From contig CP070736.1 of NCBI GenBank assembly GCA_020347645.1, positions 645,235 through 687,220 of the forward strand: DNA of 41,986 nt, read 5' to 3'. A program made the translations under genes and the position numbers. Positions within the stretch are counted from its first letter, which is position 1, and every line of letters starts with the position of its first letter. Shown here piece after piece: positions 7,701 to 31,454 of the stretch. The stretch comes from Methanobacteriota archaeon (lineage in GTDB: Archaea > Thermoplasmatota > Thermoplasmata > UBA10834). The notes under the pieces were generated by a model. The model did no database searches and was not told the origin of the DNA. It worked only from the letters and a program-made list of their open reading frames with translations.

Positions 7701-7778
7701 AATTGACCGCGTCGTGTCAATCGCCCCGCAAAACGTACACTCCGACCCGCCAAAAGGTACTTGACGCTCGATTGCTTC

Positions 7779-7788
7779 ACATATTTGG
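7779..7788 (+). promoter_or_regulatory. TATA-like box for the MttB-family gene
   Basis: ACATATTTGG, centred about 25 bases before the ATG at 7808. It predicts a leaderless transcript and argues against the longer in-frame start at 7703. Confidence 0.5.
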
Positions 7789-7807
7789 CGCAGAGACAGT
7801 GATACAC

Positions 7808-9226
7808 ATGGCGAGAGCGAAGATTTGTTTCATGGACGACGATGAAGTTGAAAGGGTACATACGACAGCCATACGACTGCTGGATGAGGTTGGCATTCTA
7901 GTTCACAGCGAATCTGTGAGCGGCATGCTAGAATCAAATGGAGCGAGACGATCCAAAGATGGAACACGAATGCTCATCTCAGAGGACATGGTGAAGAACG
8001 CTCTCTCTGTCGCTCCGAAGTCCGTCCTGCTCGCTTCAACGGATGCTGCACAAGATATCAGGATACCGGCCGCTAATGGCAGAATATTTGTCGCCAATGG
8101 TGGCGAAGGCGTTCAAATGGTGGACCTTTTGACTGGTGACAGGAGATCCCCTGTACTCGCGGACCTGCGCAACTTCGCAATACTGGTCGATGACTTGCCT
8201 CAAATAGACTTCTTCTGGGGAATGGTAGGAGCGCTCGATCAGCCTGCCCACCTTAAGGAGTTGCTAGAGATGAAGACATCATTCGAATGGACTACCAAGC
8301 ACATTCAGTTGGGTGCGATAACTGCGGAGCAAGCGCGCAAAATGGTTCGCATGGCTTCCGTGCTAATGGATGGGGAAGACAATCTGGCCAAGAGACCTAT
8401 CATATCATCTGTTCAGTGTCCCATATCGCCTCTTACATTCGAGAAGGGACTTGTTGAAGCCCAGGTGGAGTTTTCCCGCGCCGGTATTCCTGTTGTAGCC
8501 ATGACGGCCCCTGTTGCAGGTCTTTCCTCGCCGGTGACGATATCGGGAACGGTTGCCCAGACAACTGCGGAGAACCTCGCAAGCCTAGTGATATCTCAAG
8601 CAGCCCGGAAGGGCGCACCCTTCATTTTCAGCTCGGACTCGAGCCCTGCAGACCTCAAGACGGGGTCCATAGACTACGGCGCACTAGAAACACCTCTTTT
8701 CAGGGCGGCATCGGGACAGATGGCGGAATACTATGATCTGCCCAAGATGGTCGCTGGCCTCGGGCTGGAGAACCTTTCGTACGCAATAGACAACATTTGG
8801 GAGGGCGTCCACTATATGACGAACTGCGCCCTGGTGGGGTCCGATCTCTCGGCTGGCTTTGGCGGTCTCGACCAGGCGATCGGGGCGTCCTACGAGCAGC
8901 TTGTGTTGGACGCTTGGGTATGGGAAATTGCACGCGAATTCATCCGCGAGTTCGACTTCGGAGATGACGCCATATCATACGACACTATAAGGGACGCGGG
9001 GCTGGACAGAAATTTCCTGACGAAGAGACACACGTCGCAGAGGCTCCGAGGAGAGGCGATTGCCACCCGCGTCGCGGACTGCACTGTTGCTGAGAGACTG
9101 AAGGCAGTAGACACGAGGGATGCGATAGCCAGGGCATACAAGGAAGCCTCTCGCATACTTGACAGCCATCACGAACCCAAGATAGACTCAGACCAGGCAT
9201 CGGCTATGGACAGGATAATCAGGTGA
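7808..9226 (+). CDS. MttB-family corrinoid-dependent methyltransferase (non-pyrrolysine type)
   Basis: Member of the trimethylamine methyltransferase (MttB) superfamily, which moves a methyl group from a quaternary or tertiary amine to a corrinoid protein. The N-terminal segment EVERVHTTAIRLLDEVGILVHSE and the long TIM-barrel core (PISPLTFEKG, SPVTISGT, MTNCALVGSDLSAGFGG) support this. The 472-residue frame has no in-frame UAG. It therefore belongs with the non-pyrrolysine members, which in studied cases act on glycine betaine, proline betaine or carnitine; the substrate here is unknown. No corrinoid protein, corrinoid reactivase or MtbA gene is in the window. The ATG at 7808 is preferred because of promoter spacing and family alignment; an in-frame start at 7703 would add 35 atypical residues. 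Confidence 0.88.
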   Translation: MARAKICFMDDDEVERVHTTAIRLLDEVGILVHSESVSGMLESNGARRSKDGTRMLISEDMVKNALSVAPKSVLLASTDAAQDIRIPAANGRIFVANGGEGVQMVDLLTGDRRSPVLADLRNFAILVDDLPQIDFFWGMVGALDQPAHLKELLEMKTSFEWTTKHIQLGAITAEQARKMVRMASVLMDGEDNLAKRPIISSVQCPISPLTFEKGLVEAQVEFSRAGIPVVAMTAPVAGLSSPVTISGTVAQTTAENLASLVISQAARKGAPFIFSSDSSPADLKTGSIDYGALETPLFRAASGQMAEYYDLPKMVAGLGLENLSYAIDNIWEGVHYMTNCALVGSDLSAGFGGLDQAIGASYEQLVLDAWVWEIAREFIREFDFGDDAISYDTIRDAGLDRNFLTKRHTSQRLRGEAIATRVADCTVAERLKAVDTRDAIARAYKEASRILDSHHEPKIDSDQASAMDRIIR

Positions 9227-24070: not shown

Positions 24071-24876
24071 TTCTTTTTCGGCGAAGGTTTCTGGAGGTAT
24101 GTCAAGAATACGAAAACGGCCATTATTATCACACCGACCGTTAGGATCGCTCCTAGCGGGTTGCTCTCATCACCGACATAGATCGTCAACGAGCAGATAT
24201 TGTTGCCGTTGCTGAACTCGACCAAGTCATTTGCGCCGTCGATTACGACTTTGACGGTATGCTTGCCATCATCGATGTTCGCCCAGGTCCAGTTATAGCT
24301 GAGGACGGTGCTGCTCCCAGCTGCAAGGTCGAACGTCTGGGTTCCTAGATATTCGTCGTCGGCGTAGAACTTGGCGGTCACATTCACCGCGTCGATCGAA
24401 CCGGTGTTGTATACCGTTGCCCTCAGGACTATCGGATCTACCACCCTTATTTCGATCTCCCTCGTCTTTTCCGTGGTGTCACCTGATACGAGATCCTCCG
24501 ATGTGACGTTGAACATTATCTTGATCGTCTGGGGGGCATATCCGGGCATGGTGAGATTCAACTTGAACTTCCCAGAAGAGGATGTTCCCGTTGACGGCGA
24601 TACCAACGAACCCGTCTTGTTGTCGGCAATGATCTCGGCCTTATAGCTGTAATTGCCGCCCAGGTCTCCTGCGGGGCCTCCGGTTACGGTCAGAGCACAC
24701 ACAACCACCTCGGATTTCGCCGCGTATGTCGGGCAGTCGATGCCGATGCTTATGTCGCTGTAAGCTCCGGCATTCCTGGCTAGAGGCAGAACGCCCGCGA
24801 TGGAAATAGCCAATACTGCTGCCAAAAGTGCCGTTGTCATCAACAGTAGTCGAACGCGGCTATCGGATGCCATCAT
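24067..24876 (-). CDS. CARDB-domain secreted membrane-anchored protein, sequon-rich
   Basis: 269 residues. An N-terminal hydrophobic signal segment (about 9-38) is followed by two beta-sandwich regions. The second, RATVYNTGSIDAVNVTAKFYADDEYLGTQTFDLAAGSSTVLSYNWT, is a CARDB-type adhesion domain. A C-terminal membrane helix (about 242-262) ends in a Lys-rich tail. Topology is therefore outside with one anchor. Six Asn-x-Ser/Thr sequons are visible (NYS, NKT, NLT, NVT, NVT, NWT), more than expected for this length, so it may be a substrate of the neighbouring AglB. It overlaps the aglB stop by 4 bases (ATGA). Specific function unknown. Confidence 0.8.
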   Translation of the reverse strand: MMASDSRVRLLLMTTALLAAVLAISIAGVLPLARNAGAYSDISIGIDCPTYAAKSEVVVCALTVTGGPAGDLGGNYSYKAEIIADNKTGSLVSPSTGTSSSGKFKLNLTMPGYAPQTIKIMFNVTSEDLVSGDTTEKTREIEIRVVDPIVLRATVYNTGSIDAVNVTAKFYADDEYLGTQTFDLAAGSSTVLSYNWTWANIDDGKHTVKVVIDGANDLVEFSNGNNICSLTIYVGDESNPLGAILTVGVIIMAVFVFLTYLQKPSPKKK

Positions 24877-27800
24877 CGCGCCTCCCCTTTTCGCTTGCCA
24901 CCCAGACCCTTCCTACGACGAAGCAGAATGAACGCTGCTATGAGTACACCTATAGCGCATGCGAGGCCGATATTCACCATGATATTGGAGCTATCGTACA
25001 CATACGAGACATCGTCCCTGTCGGCCTCGAGATCGCCGGGAAGGATACTGATATCCGGCAGGTAGATCGGCACGGACGTGAAGGTTATTTGGCTCGTGTC
25101 GTTCACCGCGCTGACTACGATCGTAGCTTCAGCGCTCGGATCGGGGTCGTTTCTGAGGGTCGTGTATTCCAGCACGAGCTCCTCTTCACCATTAAAGTCG
25201 ACGCTCAATGTGTCAACCTCTTCAGAGGTGGCAGCGGATATCAGACGTGTGCTCCAGCCGAGGGATTTCAGGGTATCGATGTTCGTGACCTCGACTGCGA
25301 ACTCCGTCCAGACATTGCCCGTGTTGACCACGACGATTGGTGTCTGGACTGTGTCTCCAGACGCTTCATAGGCAGGTTCAGAGATGGTTATCTCCGATCT
25401 GTAGATCGAAGGTACCTTGACAACCAAGTCGACTTCCGCTCTCGCGCTGGAAGAGGACTCGGATCTTATCTGCACGGGAACCACTGAGTCTCCGCCCGGT
25501 GCATCTTCCAGGACCGTTATCTCTGCGACGAACACCGCCTCGTTTCCATTTGTTCCAAAGTCGATGTACTGCGTCGTCGGAACGAATGCCACTTCAAAGC
25601 CTTGTCCATCATAGAAGCAGGTGTAATCGTCACCAATGTTGCCCGTGTTCTCCACTGTGAACGCATAGGTCACAGCCTGGCCAGGAATAGCTGGCAATGC
25701 GACGGACGAATTCCAGTCAGCTTCAACGGAGCGAATGTCATATCTGTTCAGAGCGAAATCGACGAAGACGTCAACGGAGCCGATCTCAACGGATTTCGAT
25801 AGGGAGTATTCGACCGTCATGCCGGCTTCGACCCGTTCGGTATTTGCCGCTAGAACGTAGTCTCCCGACGGAACTAGCACCGAAAAGTAGCCGCTGGAAT
25901 CGCTCCTTACTGATAGCGTCGCATCGCCCTTGGACAGAGTCAAGGGTTCCTCTATGCCGATATCCTCTGCTGTCACCCTGCCGGACAGAAACTTCCCATC
26001 AGAGAAATCGATGTCGAATATCGCCGTCTCATCCCTGGCAACCTCGATGAACCCAAGCGAGACGCTGCTATCCTGGGTGCGCTTTGCATATACCGTGTAG
26101 TCACCGGGCTGCACCTGAGCGGCGTACGAGCCCGATGGGTCTGTGTAAATAGTGACTCCTAGGCCATAGGCGGTGTTGGGCGACAGTACTATCTGTGCCT
26201 GTGTCGGCGAACCGTCGATTCCTGTGGCGACCCCTGTAATCGTGGTGTTGTCCAGGCGCATGTCCATATCTGGATTGAGCGTGACATCTTCAGATGCGAG
26301 GCTAATGATCTCGGAAGCGGTGTATTCCACATATAGGACTCTCCCTCCTTCTGCGAACGTCGATTCGACACTGAAATCCAACGCATAGGACCCTGGTGGC
26401 AACACGATTTCGTACGACCCGTAAGTCGAGGACGTGACCGCTACCGCTACGCCTTCGGGCGTGGTTGCCGTAACCTTGACTGGCTTCGTGGACGGCACGG
26501 AGTCGATATGCGCAACTCCCGTAACGTTGCAGGCCTTCTCGAGCATCAAATCGAACTGTGTCGAACCGATAGCCACATCGGCCTTGACCATGCTCGCGTA
26601 GACCGCATCCCCGATCTTCCCGGAGGCGAAAATCTGATACGTACCCGGCTCAACATAAGCAGAGTAGGTGAAACCGTCGAGTTTCAGAGTTACATCCTCT
26701 GGGCCTTCTATCTTGACTTCGATATCTTCCGCCGCACCGAGTACGTTGCCGTGGAGTTCTACCCTCCTCACTGCCGAGATGTCGTAGACGAATGCGTCTT
26801 CCGAAGGCTCGAATGTCTCGGTCGACAGATATTGAATCCGAGAATCACCACCGAGGAGTGATTCATGGTCTATCTCAACTCGATAATCAGAAGGAGAGAT
26901 TGCGACCGTGAACTGTCCGTCCGTTCCAGTTATGGCGTAAATGGGATCCAGCGTCATGAGATTCGGAAGGAAAGAGACCGTTGCGCCTCGCACACTGACC
27001 GAGTCACAGACGACTCTGCCCGTTACCGTCAGATCATCAGGCGTAGCGAACAGCGTCACATTCTTTGCGTCGTCTCCAAACAAGCCAGGCGTGCTCCATT
27101 CTGAATAACCCGGTTCGGCCAAGGAGAATGTGACTTCGACGCCCTGCTTGGCCATGATCCTGTAGTCGCCTTCATCATCGGCTCTCGTCGTGTAGACTCT
27201 GCCGTACGCATCTGTGACTTCCATTAGAGCGTAGGCGCCGAACTCCGCTTCTCCAATCGAGCCGGAGCTGTCGTCATCCTTCCATAGGGTTCCGGTAACG
27301 ATCACTCCCCTCTCCCCGAGAAGACGTAGGTCGTTCATGTCCGAATCGACCGTCAGCGAACCAGAGTACAAGCCGTCTCCAACAATAGCCCAGCACAAGA
27401 CTTCGTATTGGCCTCCTGGCAGACGAAGGTCAAACTCCCCGAGACCGTTCGTCAAAGAGAATATCCTCGTGCCGTCCTCGGCGATGAACACGACGTGGGT
27501 GTTCTTGATCAAGGTGCTTCGCACACCCCTTGGAGATCCGGTGACCGTGAACGCTGATTCGAGTTGGAGGGTGCCTGTTATGATGTCGGACGCGCAGCCG
27601 TCGATCGTTCTGAAGCCGGCGTAGTCCGCTTCGCCAGCAGAGTAGGCGGAGTACAACGTCCAGTAGCCGCGCGGCACATCTGCCTCCACCCAGCCGAACC
27701 TGTCGGCCAGGCCGGATATGTAGTCTCTTGGATAGTATACGTCATTGATTATGTACGGTGCGTAGGAAACAGGAGTACCATTCTTAGTCACTCTCATCTT

Positions 27801-30800
27801 TATGGTAATCCGCTCGAATGCTGTACAATCGCGTTCGAGCGACCCGCCCTCACCCAGGTTCATGCGCTCGTTAAACAGCATTAGCTCGGGATCATACGTA
27901 ACGAGGTTGTACCTGCCTCCCAAGACCTGTGGGAAGACATACGAGCCCGACTCGTTAGTGACGGCAGCGAACGAATTTTCGAAGAAGGCGTTCTCAAGCA
28001 CCAGCTCCAGACCCGCAACAGGAGCGCCGTCCACGGTCGTCACATTGCCCCTCAATCTAGCGGGTTTCAGCGGGAGGGGCAGCTCGGCCGTCTTTTCCGA
28101 GCTCACGTTGAGCGTCTCGGACATCAACATCTTGGTATCCATCATCTCAGCATAGACCTCATACTGCCCTGGTGGCAGTAGCATGCTGTAGTAGCCATCA
28201 GATATGTCTGCGGCTGTAAGGACGCCGTTGGCTTTGTTCTCAGCGAAGACGACTCCCTCTCCGATCGGGTCGTCATCCTGAGACGTGAAGTTGCCATCCT
28301 CGTTGAGGTCCCAGAAGATGTCGCCTACGAGTTCCCCGCTCTTCACGACGCAATCCTTCGTTATGATGTAATCATACACGCCGTCGAAGTCCAGATCCTG
28401 TCTGACCCTCATGGCCTGATCGTCGGTAACGGTCAGCTCGTATCTGGATATCTCCTGGCTCCCCTGGAGCTTCGTGTTCTTGGCGTCATCTCCTGAGGAT
28501 ACAACCAGAGTTACCTCGCCGAATGGGGCTAGCAGAGAATATCGCCCGTTCGCATCGGTCAGACAAGTGTCATGAGGGATGCCGTACTCGTCCTGCACGG
28601 TCATCCTCGCGCCGGATACGATGGTCCCTTCTTCGGTCGTTACTGTCCCGTTCAAGAACGCGCCATGATAGTACTTCAGGAAGACTGTGCCGCTCATGTA
28701 TAGCGTGCGAGCACCCTGGTCGATTACCCCTTCGATCTCGCCCGCGCTTATCGCCGAAAGCATGTCTTGTGCATCGTCGTAACTCACGGCTCTCCATGCG
28801 TTCTGATGAAACGGCACAAGGTCGGCGGTGTATGGATTGTAGAATGCAGTTCTGTAAACCATTTTGAAATGCGACATATTCCAGCCAGGCATAGGTTGCT
28901 CGTTTTGAATCGTACCGCTGTATCCGGGAAGACCGTCGTTCTGCGCACCCAAGTCTGAGCCGCTGAACCCACACATAGCCCTGTAGAACATGCTATCGTA
29001 GAACATGTCCTTGTACTCTATCACATAGTTGGCGATTGACATATCGGACGTCACCGATTCCAGGGCAATCGTCTGCCCCTGACTGGTGACTGCCTTTATC
29101 TCGAAGAAATCGATGGGGATTGAGCCGCCCTGGATACGCCGGTCTGAGAGTTTGGCCGGAGCATAGAAGATTCCCGTGTTGGTCGCGGATATGGGGAACA
29201 GTCGCGAGTCGACGTTGAAGTAGCGTATCTCCCAGCCGAGGAGTGCGCACAGATCGTCGTAGAACGACACCAGTGAATCGAGGCCGGCATCGCAGAGCAC
29301 CTCCCTTCCGAAAACGATCCGCGCATTGTAGCTGCTAATGTCACTGGCCATAGGGCCGTATCTGTCAGGGTCTTTTATGATCTCATCAGTCAGCTCCGCA
29401 ATCGAACCTGTGAATGCGTTGATCATCTGTTCGCTCGATATGCCGTGCTTCTCGAACAGCGATAGGACCTTCTCCCGTGAGGAAAGCCTTCCGTATCCGG
29501 ATTGGGCCAACTCGAAAGCGAACAGAGCTATCGCATCCTCCTCACCCTGCGCCATCAGAGCGTTGCCGGTGAGTTGGTAGCCGTTCTGGAAGTTGTCCGC
29601 GACGGTCGGATGCTTGCCCTCCTGTACTGCCTCGAAACCGTAGTCCCACCAGGCAACATACGCGGGGCGAGCCGTCTCAGGATACTTGTCGGAATCCTGT
29701 TCCGCAAACCAATCCCAAGCCGACGGATAGTACTGGCTTGGCAGGGGTAATGAATAGCCGAACGCGCCCAAATACCAGTTGGAACCGTTGTATGTGTCGT
29801 ACCCTCCCGGTCTCATGAAGCTAGGCATGCTGAAGTAGACCTGCTTGTCGTATTCACGCTTGCTCTCTGACGGTATGCCTGCGTCCACGCTGTACCAGAC
29901 GTTCGGCATAATGATAAAGAATGCCAGAAAGAGGGCGCCAACGACGTGGCGAATCTTGATGCTCTTTCGGAGAATCTGCTTGATTGAACCGCTTGCTCCG
30001 GAAAAGGATTTTCTCACGCCGCCAAAATCTAGCTTGTCAATTATGATGGTCAGAACCCAACCAGCTGCGAGAGCGAACGCGGGAGCAGCGTTGAACATGA
30101 ATCTACCTGCCGACATCGCCATGAAAATGGCGGCGCTAAGCCAGACGACCATGAATATCGATCCGGCAGCTGTCTGCTTCGGCACCCTCGTTATCGCATA
30201 GAACAGCCCGGCCAACGAAATGAAGAAAGTCACCATGCCAAAGGACATAGCGAGCTCGCTGAACTCAGGCGCACGGGCCTCAGCAATGGTTGAGTACAGT
30301 TTGCTCTGGACGAAGTAGCCCTGACCCGTCATGATGGCCTCGCCGAGAGCTGGGAAAGCAACGGCTATTCCCATGATTCCGATTATCAGCACCAAGGCAA
30401 CCGTCGGAACCGCCATGGTCCACGGATAATCTCTGGACACGACGAACATCATGGCGAATATCATTGCCGCTAGAAAGAGGTACACCGGCACATCGAACCT
30501 GACGCTTATCAGCGTCTGCTCGTAGTATACGGGGAAAGATATCAGATAGCCGAACCCCATCGTCACAAATACTAGCAGAGTCACGCCGAGAGAATCTATG
30601 TTCTTGAACCTATTGAGTAGAATCTGGATAAGAAGATATGCGAGGATAAGCACTGCGACATAAGTAAACCCGACCCAAGCCATGACAACGCAGCCGAAAG
30701 ACACCCCGGCAAGAAGCGCATAAAGCAAGGCGGCCTTGCTGCGCGAAAGATACTGTCCCAGACCAGCGCGAATGCTGGCGATGCTTTTCCAATTGTCGAC

Positions 30801-31454
30801 CCATCGGACATGCTCTTGGATCTTAACAGCTCTGAGCAGGAGATAGAAGGTCAGGACTATGAAAAACAGTATGAACGCATCATGGTCAGCATTTGACAGG
30901 ACGCTTCTCTGAACATGGCTGGGAGTTATTGCCAGAAGGAAGGCCGCGACGAGTCCTGCCCTCCTGCCGAAAGTCTCCTTTCCGAGGAAGTACACGGGCA
31001 CTACCGTCAGCGCTCCCCAAAATGCAGTCGACCAAACGAACATGAAGCCAACAGCGTCGCTCATCGTCTCGAAGAGGTCTTCCGCTATCACTGCGGGGAG
31101 CGCCACAGACATACTGTAGAACGGTGGTCGCGGGTTTCTTATGCCGTCTGGGAAGTTAATCAGCGGATCCCAGTACATGGAATCCCCCGTCTCTACATGA
31201 TAGTCTATGATCCTCCTCCAGTAATACGAGTCCGAACCACCGGACACGATGAAGTCATTATCTACACTCATGTCAAAAGCGAAGTACGATCTGATAAACA
31301 GTGCTAATAGGAAGATGAAGACCATCATGGCTAGGACAGACCAATTCGCCCCGATCCACTTCCTGAACTCGGTAGGCGCTCCTCCCCCACGGAAAAGCTT
31401 GGACAGAAGCGACCTAGGAGGATCATCTCTTGACTCAGACAACGACTCTTCCAC
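24873..31454 (-). CDS. aglB: Giant oligosaccharyltransferase AglB (STT3) with surface-domain C-terminal extension
   Basis: Catalytic subunit that moves a lipid-linked glycan to Asn sequons outside the cell. Residues 1-520 hold about 11-13 membrane helices. The first acidic motif is GGSDSYYW (Asp75), the second NADHDAF (Asp190/Asp192), and the WWDYG acceptor-binding motif is at 602-606. A globular part runs to about 930. Then come about eleven repeats of a CarboxypepD_reg/SdrB-like beta-sandwich (933-1905; recurring GxV...G...YS...PGxY pattern). Two Ig-like domains follow (1914-2125), then a membrane helix (about 2159-2178) and a basic tail. At 2,193 aa it is about twice the usual 850-1,050. 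At least 13 sequons lie in its outer parts. It is first in an operon with the CARDB and thioredoxin genes. GTG start. The frame is continuous and shows no sign of a chimera. Confidence 0.93.
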   Translation of the reverse strand: MEESLSESRDDPPRSLLSKLFRGGGAPTEFRKWIGANWSVLAMMVFIFLLALFIRSYFAFDMSVDNDFIVSGGSDSYYWRRIIDYHVETGDSMYWDPLINFPDGIRNPRPPFYSMSVALPAVIAEDLFETMSDAVGFMFVWSTAFWGALTVVPVYFLGKETFGRRAGLVAAFLLAITPSHVQRSVLSNADHDAFILFFIVLTFYLLLRAVKIQEHVRWVDNWKSIASIRAGLGQYLSRSKAALLYALLAGVSFGCVVMAWVGFTYVAVLILAYLLIQILLNRFKNIDSLGVTLLVFVTMGFGYLISFPVYYEQTLISVRFDVPVYLFLAAMIFAMMFVVSRDYPWTMAVPTVALVLIIGIMGIAVAFPALGEAIMTGQGYFVQSKLYSTIAEARAPEFSELAMSFGMVTFFISLAGLFYAITRVPKQTAAGSIFMVVWLSAAIFMAMSAGRFMFNAAPAFALAAGWVLTIIIDKLDFGGVRKSFSGASGSIKQILRKSIKIRHVVGALFLAFFIIMPNVWYSVDAGIPSESKREYDKQVYFSMPSFMRPGGYDTYNGSNWYLGAFGYSLPLPSQYYPSAWDWFAEQDSDKYPETARPAYVAWWDYGFEAVQEGKHPTVADNFQNGYQLTGNALMAQGEEDAIALFAFELAQSGYGRLSSREKVLSLFEKHGISSEQMINAFTGSIAELTDEIIKDPDRYGPMASDISSYNARIVFGREVLCDAGLDSLVSFYDDLCALLGWEIRYFNVDSRLFPISATNTGIFYAPAKLSDRRIQGGSIPIDFFEIKAVTSQGQTIALESVTSDMSIANYVIEYKDMFYDSMFYRAMCGFSGSDLGAQNDGLPGYSGTIQNEQPMPGWNMSHFKMVYRTAFYNPYTADLVPFHQNAWRAVSYDDAQDMLSAISAGEIEGVIDQGARTLYMSGTVFLKYYHGAFLNGTVTTEEGTIVSGARMTVQDEYGIPHDTCLTDANGRYSLLAPFGEVTLVVSSGDDAKNTKLQGSQEISRYELTVTDDQAMRVRQDLDFDGVYDYIITKDCVVKSGELVGDIFWDLNEDGNFTSQDDDPIGEGVVFAENKANGVLTAADISDGYYSMLLPPGQYEVYAEMMDTKMLMSETLNVSSEKTAELPLPLKPARLRGNVTTVDGAPVAGLELVLENAFFENSFAAVTNESGSYVFPQVLGGRYNLVTYDPELMLFNERMNLGEGGSLERDCTAFERITIKMRVTKNGTPVSYAPYIINDVYYPRDYISGLADRFGWVEADVPRGYWTLYSAYSAGEADYAGFRTIDGCASDIITGTLQLESAFTVTGSPRGVRSTLIKNTHVVFIAEDGTRIFSLTNGLGEFDLRLPGGQYEVLCWAIVGDGLYSGSLTVDSDMNDLRLLGERGVIVTGTLWKDDDSSGSIGEAEFGAYALMEVTDAYGRVYTTRADDEGDYRIMAKQGVEVTFSLAEPGYSEWSTPGLFGDDAKNVTLFATPDDLTVTGRVVCDSVSVRGATVSFLPNLMTLDPIYAITGTDGQFTVAISPSDYRVEIDHESLLGGDSRIQYLSTETFEPSEDAFVYDISAVRRVELHGNVLGAAEDIEVKIEGPEDVTLKLDGFTYSAYVEPGTYQIFASGKIGDAVYASMVKADVAIGSTQFDLMLEKACNVTGVAHIDSVPSTKPVKVTATTPEGVAVAVTSSTYGSYEIVLPPGSYALDFSVESTFAEGGRVLYVEYTASEIISLASEDVTLNPDMDMRLDNTTITGVATGIDGSPTQAQIVLSPNTAYGLGVTIYTDPSGSYAAQVQPGDYTVYAKRTQDSSVSLGFIEVARDETAIFDIDFSDGKFLSGRVTAEDIGIEEPLTLSKGDATLSVRSDSSGYFSVLVPSGDYVLAANTERVEAGMTVEYSLSKSVEIGSVDVFVDFALNRYDIRSVEADWNSSVALPAIPGQAVTYAFTVENTGNIGDDYTCFYDGQGFEVAFVPTTQYIDFGTNGNEAVFVAEITVLEDAPGGDSVVPVQIRSESSSSARAEVDLVVKVPSIYRSEITISEPAYEASGDTVQTPIVVVNTGNVWTEFAVEVTNIDTLKSLGWSTRLISAATSEEVDTLSVDFNGEEELVLEYTTLRNDPDPSAEATIVVSAVNDTSQITFTSVPIYLPDISILPGDLEADRDDVSYVYDSSNIMVNIGLACAIGVLIAAFILLRRRKGLGGKRKGEAR

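Follow-up and report, generated by a model that had tools for sequence, protein, structure and literature searches.

A giant AglB of Thermoplasmatota with a membrane-anchored outer array and a linked CARDB protein, kept in methanogens that have lost its catalytic motifs

Archaeal oligosaccharyltransferases (OSTs) are usually viewed as single compact enzymes. We know of no eleven-domain array, second membrane anchor or CARDB neighbour for the AglB-L of Archaeoglobus fulgidus. This enzyme, 875 aa long in its PDB entry, shares with the protein described here the STT3 fold, the motifs and the core, the two aligning at residues 32-626 with an E value of 8e-19 (PDB 3waj, 5gmy). NOMO, of the BOS/multipass translocon of the ER (PDB 9c7v_B), is likewise a membrane-anchored array of prealbumin-like domains, numbered up to PLD12 (PMC11186639). 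However, NOMO, whose partners are nicalin and TMEM147, is a stand-alone protein, its array unfused to an OST, whereas the array reported here, of 11 such domains plus 2 Ig-like ones, sits behind the STT3 half of an AglB. TRAP and OST1, in eukaryotes and Asgard archaea, are membrane-anchored outer beta-sandwich proteins beside the OST or the translocon, and offer an analogy for the CARDB protein encoded next to this AglB (PMC11417166, PMC11186639).

The window, that is, the whole stretch of 41,986 nucleotides that was analysed, encodes the giant AglB in a frame with no internal stop from its GTG codon onwards (Table 1). The initial annotation had described a fusion of 2,193 residues, leaving the strand unstated; the fusion is real, and it lies on the minus strand. 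Its STT3 half matches PF02516, the STT3 N-terminal GT-C membrane domain, with an E value of 3.9e-20 (73.2 bits, the cut-off being 24.5). The motifs that had been read as intact (GGSDSYYW, NADHDAF and WWDYG) are confirmed by position, and TIAEA is there as well, which completes the set of AglB/STT3 motifs checked (GGSD, ADHD, TIAEA, WWDYG). A DK/DM-type sequon-binding motif would lie behind WWDYG, and the 3waj alignment ends at residue 626. Within the core, Pfam gives a weak AglB_core-like match at residues 594-641. The protein scores 213 bits with TIGR04154 (archaeo_STT3, archaeosortase A-associated), whose curated cut-off is 450 bits.

Table 1. Features of the aglB locus, with positions in the window and residues of the giant AglB
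Feature	Positions	Strand	Remarks
Giant AglB, 2,193 aa, GTG start	24873..31454	minus	stop at 24873-24875
Multi-pass STT3 (GT-C) membrane region, residues 1-524	29883..31454	minus	PF02516; last helix ends at residue 517
First catalytic motif GGSDSYY, residues 72-78 (GGSDSYYW from 72)	31221..31241	minus	
Second acidic motif NADHDAF, residues 188-194	30873..30893	minus	
TIAEA (TIXE) motif, residues 389-393	30276..30290	minus	
WWDYG motif, residues 602-606	29637..29651	minus	
Extracellular AglB core domain, residues 525-925	28680..29882	minus	3waj match (residues 32-626) and AglB_core-like match
Eleven CarboxypepD_reg/prealbumin-like repeats, residues 919-1890	25785..28700	minus	
Two Ig-like domains, about residues 1901-2152	24999..25754	minus	AlphaFold2 strands to residue 2120
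C-terminal membrane helix (2155-2181) and basic tail RRRKGLGGKRKGEAR	24876..24992	minus	
CARDB partner, 269 aa	24067..24876	minus	shares 4 nt with AglB stop; PF07705 E 4.2e-16
Thioredoxin, 138 aa	23654..24070	minus	shares 4 nt with CARDB gene; no membrane helix seen

Behind the core, the repeats have their anchors at residues 975-1861, spaced 80 to 118 residues apart. With each repeat left out in turn, a profile of the remaining ten found it (E 6e-14 to 0.01, two of them weakly, at 0.003 and 0.01), and the repeat profile had no match in 20 shuffles of the sequence, so that the earlier count of "about eleven" is borne out at eleven. Two of the families that had been proposed for a domain search match in Pfam, CarboxypepD_reg at 5.3e-36 with 7 stretches and SdrD_B at 1.9e-7. 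AlphaFold2 models residues 925-2120 as beta-sandwiches strung one after another (mean pLDDT 77), in which the packing of the domains is undefined because the pTM is 0.39. The two Ig-like domains, a part of which is weakly matched by NF041740, the C-terminal helix and the basic tail also agree with the first description. Given this second membrane helix at the C-terminus, the outer chain is held in the membrane at both ends. The extension is very acidic, and thirteen sequons, where at least 13 had been announced, lie outside the membrane part (residues 525-2155). Arrays of CarboxypepD_reg domains also occur elsewhere in the source genome (L161-L164), in a 1,967-aa surface-type protein, a 558-aa array, a 918-aa solute-binding protein and an 813-aa protein.

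In the order to which the source belongs, 20 of 21 genomes encode the giant protein, mostly in frames of 2,185-2,265 aa that are collinear without large gaps. As such frames recur in independent genomes, an assembly or frameshift artefact is ruled out. Identity between genera of this order is 33-39% in the extension and 62-68% in the enzyme half; the extension thus changes faster. Nearly all families of the class have frames of 2,000-2,400 aa, and in most of them the extension profile spans almost its full length (E 1e-79 to 1e-233), while it aligns piecewise in several (L081, L170, L171, L174). In the rows of one methanogen family, f4, this profile has no match, and the full-length profile still matches piecewise. 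A length survey of 390 Thermoplasmatota genomes found STT3 frames of 2,000-2,700 aa to be common, and two families with frames of about 3,150-3,260 aa.

Judged by the span of the extension in most class families and by STT3 frames of 2,000-3,260 aa across the phylum, the fusion is standard in Thermoplasmatota. The reading of the initial annotation therefore stands as far as it concerns an active-looking AglB with a large membrane-anchored outer array, and needs qualifying in that the fusion is no peculiarity of one genome. As refuting conditions it had named a stop or a frameshift between the STT3 part and the repeats, which is excluded, and fusions that prove standard and already described in the lineage; the first half of the latter applies, and as to the second, we found no published description in the open-licence literature. 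Other members of the phylum have a short AglB of 900-1,430 aa with zero to five recognised repeats. The C-terminal helix is absent from the short forms examined, and no separate array gene was seen downstream of them in the loci read, which belong to other classes. STT3 fusions of about 3,180 aa, in which few repeats were recognised, come from two other families (L095, L096), possibly marine Poseidoniales.

A second constant element is the CARDB partner. Wherever a locus of the class left room to look, a single-pass CARDB protein is encoded directly downstream of aglB on the same strand (67/67 loci, of which 42/42 have intact and 25/25 lost motifs), as it is in the window. From its N-terminal signal or helix, the protein runs through an Ig-like pair with CARDB domain to a C-terminal helix and a KKK tail. 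Mostly, the two frames share 4 nt or stand no more than some tens of bases apart, larger apparent overlaps (up to 703 nt, L185) being an artefact of choosing the first possible start codon. The linkage survives the loss of upstream pyrF synteny. Among other classes, in two loci with no CARDB gene (L099 and L102), the giant AglB itself ends in a CARDB domain (Pfam 2.7e-8 and 1.7e-10, respectively) and a membrane helix, and looks as if the partner had fused to it; L097 and L100 end in the same way, weakly. Compared with PDB folds, the partner model retrieved only generic Ig pairs, and its sequence matched neither TRAP nor OST1. Downstream of the partner, the thioredoxin neighbour is restricted to the order of the source and family f10. 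It was considered as an OST3/OST6 subunit and rejected on three grounds: this restricted occurrence, a sequence with no membrane helix and an OST3_OST6 score below cut-off.

Family f4, probably Methanomethylophilaceae, is methanogenic, since its genomes carry mcrA. The giant protein is encoded in all 27 of its genomes that were searched, running across the ends of a single contig in one case (G135) and split between contigs in two (G371, G150). In 25 of these 27 genomes all the catalytic motifs are lost, and in the two members of genus g23 they are intact; three further f4 genomes (G123, G144, G169) also lack every motif, which brings the total to 28 of 30. The f4 array is divergent, with few repeats still recognised. 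At the f4 loci L168, L167, L169, L183-L207 and L213-L215, full-length orthologues with replaced motifs are adjoined by an intact CARDB gene. The motifs have also been lost in a genus of another methanogen family, f9 (G187, locus L175). The tree requires two changes, and no bootstrap tree was compatible with one, which indicates at least two independent losses. Between the closest f4 pairs, dN/dS is 0.10-0.22; between distant motif-lost pairs it is mostly 0.3-0.7, with one pair at 0.14-0.18. These ratios point to clear purifying selection on the giant protein in close f4 pairs, and to a looser one over longer spans. We infer that the f4 enzyme has lost its activity.

The N-x-T sequons differ between the motif-intact and the motif-lost f4 proteins. 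Taking shuffles of each sequence as the expectation, the extensions of 42 motif-intact proteins contain 763 N-x-T for 283 expected (2.7-fold), and those of 25 motif-lost f4 proteins 151 for 141 (rank test between the groups, p 2e-11). In the CARDB partner, the observed and expected numbers are 221 and 56 in motif-intact loci (4-fold) versus 24 and 24 in motif-lost ones (p 5e-11). Both p-values overstate the independence of the data, because the motif-lost rows form one clade, and the comparisons were chosen once a subset had been inspected, several patterns having been tried. For N-x-S and for the reversed pattern, motif-intact and motif-lost extensions do not differ, and the reversed pattern is not enriched.

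Since the N-x-T excess accompanies intact motifs and is gone in motif-lost f4, the extension is probably glycosylated where the motifs of the enzyme are intact, and the pattern fits a loss of glycosylation where they are gone. The proposal of self-glycosylation made in the initial annotation thus gains support with regard to glycosylation of the array, and the enrichment cannot tell action in cis from action in trans. The window protein itself has a modest excess (11 versus 6.5, z 2.0). Against the pattern, however, the second lineage with lost motifs, G187, keeps a moderate one (23 versus 15, z 2.5), which may reflect a more recent loss.

The question is then what the outer chain does. The account that we favour, and that we hold to be somewhat better than an even bet, combines an active AglB, a tethered arch and the CARDB protein in one glycosylated complex with a second role that needs no glycosylation. 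The outer part of AglB would have lengthened early in Thermoplasmatota into an arch, made of the core domain, the eleven prealbumin-like domains, the two Ig-like domains and the second membrane helix. AglB would most likely act as a complex with the adjoining single-pass protein, and the enzyme would glycosylate secreted proteins as well as the N-x-T sites that its extension and its partner carry, in cis or in trans. Because the giant protein was kept after catalytic loss, arch and partner would hold a role independent of glycosylation, and a second, structural task for the outer chain is probable. As our first choice, it would serve proteins as scaffold or chaperone when they appear at the membrane, in the manner of the NOMO array beside the ER translocon; a fixed envelope element ranks close behind.

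In its most specific form, which we put forward only tentatively, giant AglB and CARDB protein would be a two-part, OST-fused scaffold acting on proteins that exit the translocon, a prokaryotic counterpart of NOMO and TRAP, which became a pseudo-oligosaccharyltransferase in one methanogen family. NOMO2 was the sole PDB sequence below E 0.1 for the extension profile (E 1.9e-14), and 6 of 8 homologues matched Pfam NOMO_5th. The similarity lies at the level of the profile: taken one by one, NOMO domains score weakly, a search with the window sequence by itself found nothing, and the top 50 Foldseek matches of the extension were generic beta-sandwich proteins, NOMO being absent from them. Strict homology to NOMO is thus unsupported by the fold search or the single-sequence search. 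As the fold search does not single out NOMO, we write that the array may work like NOMO, and do not count it as a member. Two other arrays of the source genome gave E 0.11 or no match against NOMO2; they are no fair control for the profile match, because they were run as single-sequence searches.

Alternatively, as the initial annotation had considered, the array may mainly be a structural component of the cell surface. It would then rise as stalk or arch in a glycoprotein coat, AglB would form the base in the membrane, and the partner would be a further coat component. The source genome has other surface-type proteins with the same types of domain; the extension diverges more quickly than the enzyme half and is very acidic and rich in sequons; and the array outlasts catalysis. 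However, there is one gene copy per genome, joined to an enzyme that is normally needed in small amounts, and the number of repeats and the order of domains show a constancy that would be unusual in a coat protein. We regard this reading as the main rival, possible but less likely than the favoured account.

That the array only holds or orients substrates for glycosylation, with no other job, would fit its fusion to the OST in all class families seen and the adjacency of AglB core and array in the chain. In f4, however, array and partner persist although the motifs have disappeared and the sequon excess is gone; this argues against acceptor handling for glycosylation as the sole job, and we consider this explanation improbable. 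Finally, an f4 STT3 half that transfers something else, served by the array, would account for its being the better conserved half and under purifying selection, but all the checked metal- and sequon-binding motifs have given way to residues that differ from one f4 genus to another, no new acidic set common to them was seen, and we give this idea very little credit.

Under the favoured account, a complex with a second role, the OST of a whole phylum is coupled to a scaffold that is long and anchored, a fixed partner protein accompanies it within the class, and one methanogen family provides a natural experiment in which catalysis was apparently lost while scaffold and partner were kept. New here are this fixed CARDB partner, the motif loss with retention of the giant protein and the pattern of N-x-T enrichment. 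The role of accessory domains beside an OST thereby becomes testable where there is no glycosylation, which bears on the origin of the multi-subunit OST and translocon of eukaryotes. The vanishing N-x-T excess also suggests a means to spot, from sequence only, archaea that have lost N-glycosylation.

An MTTB-family methyltransferase is encoded in the window at 7703-9226 on the plus strand, in a genome with no mcrA match. In several class families (L170-L174, L165, L166, L177, L178), the second acidic motif of AglB is altered, for example to DGRMHTP or YANYLSF, and GGSD, TIXE and WWDYG are retained.
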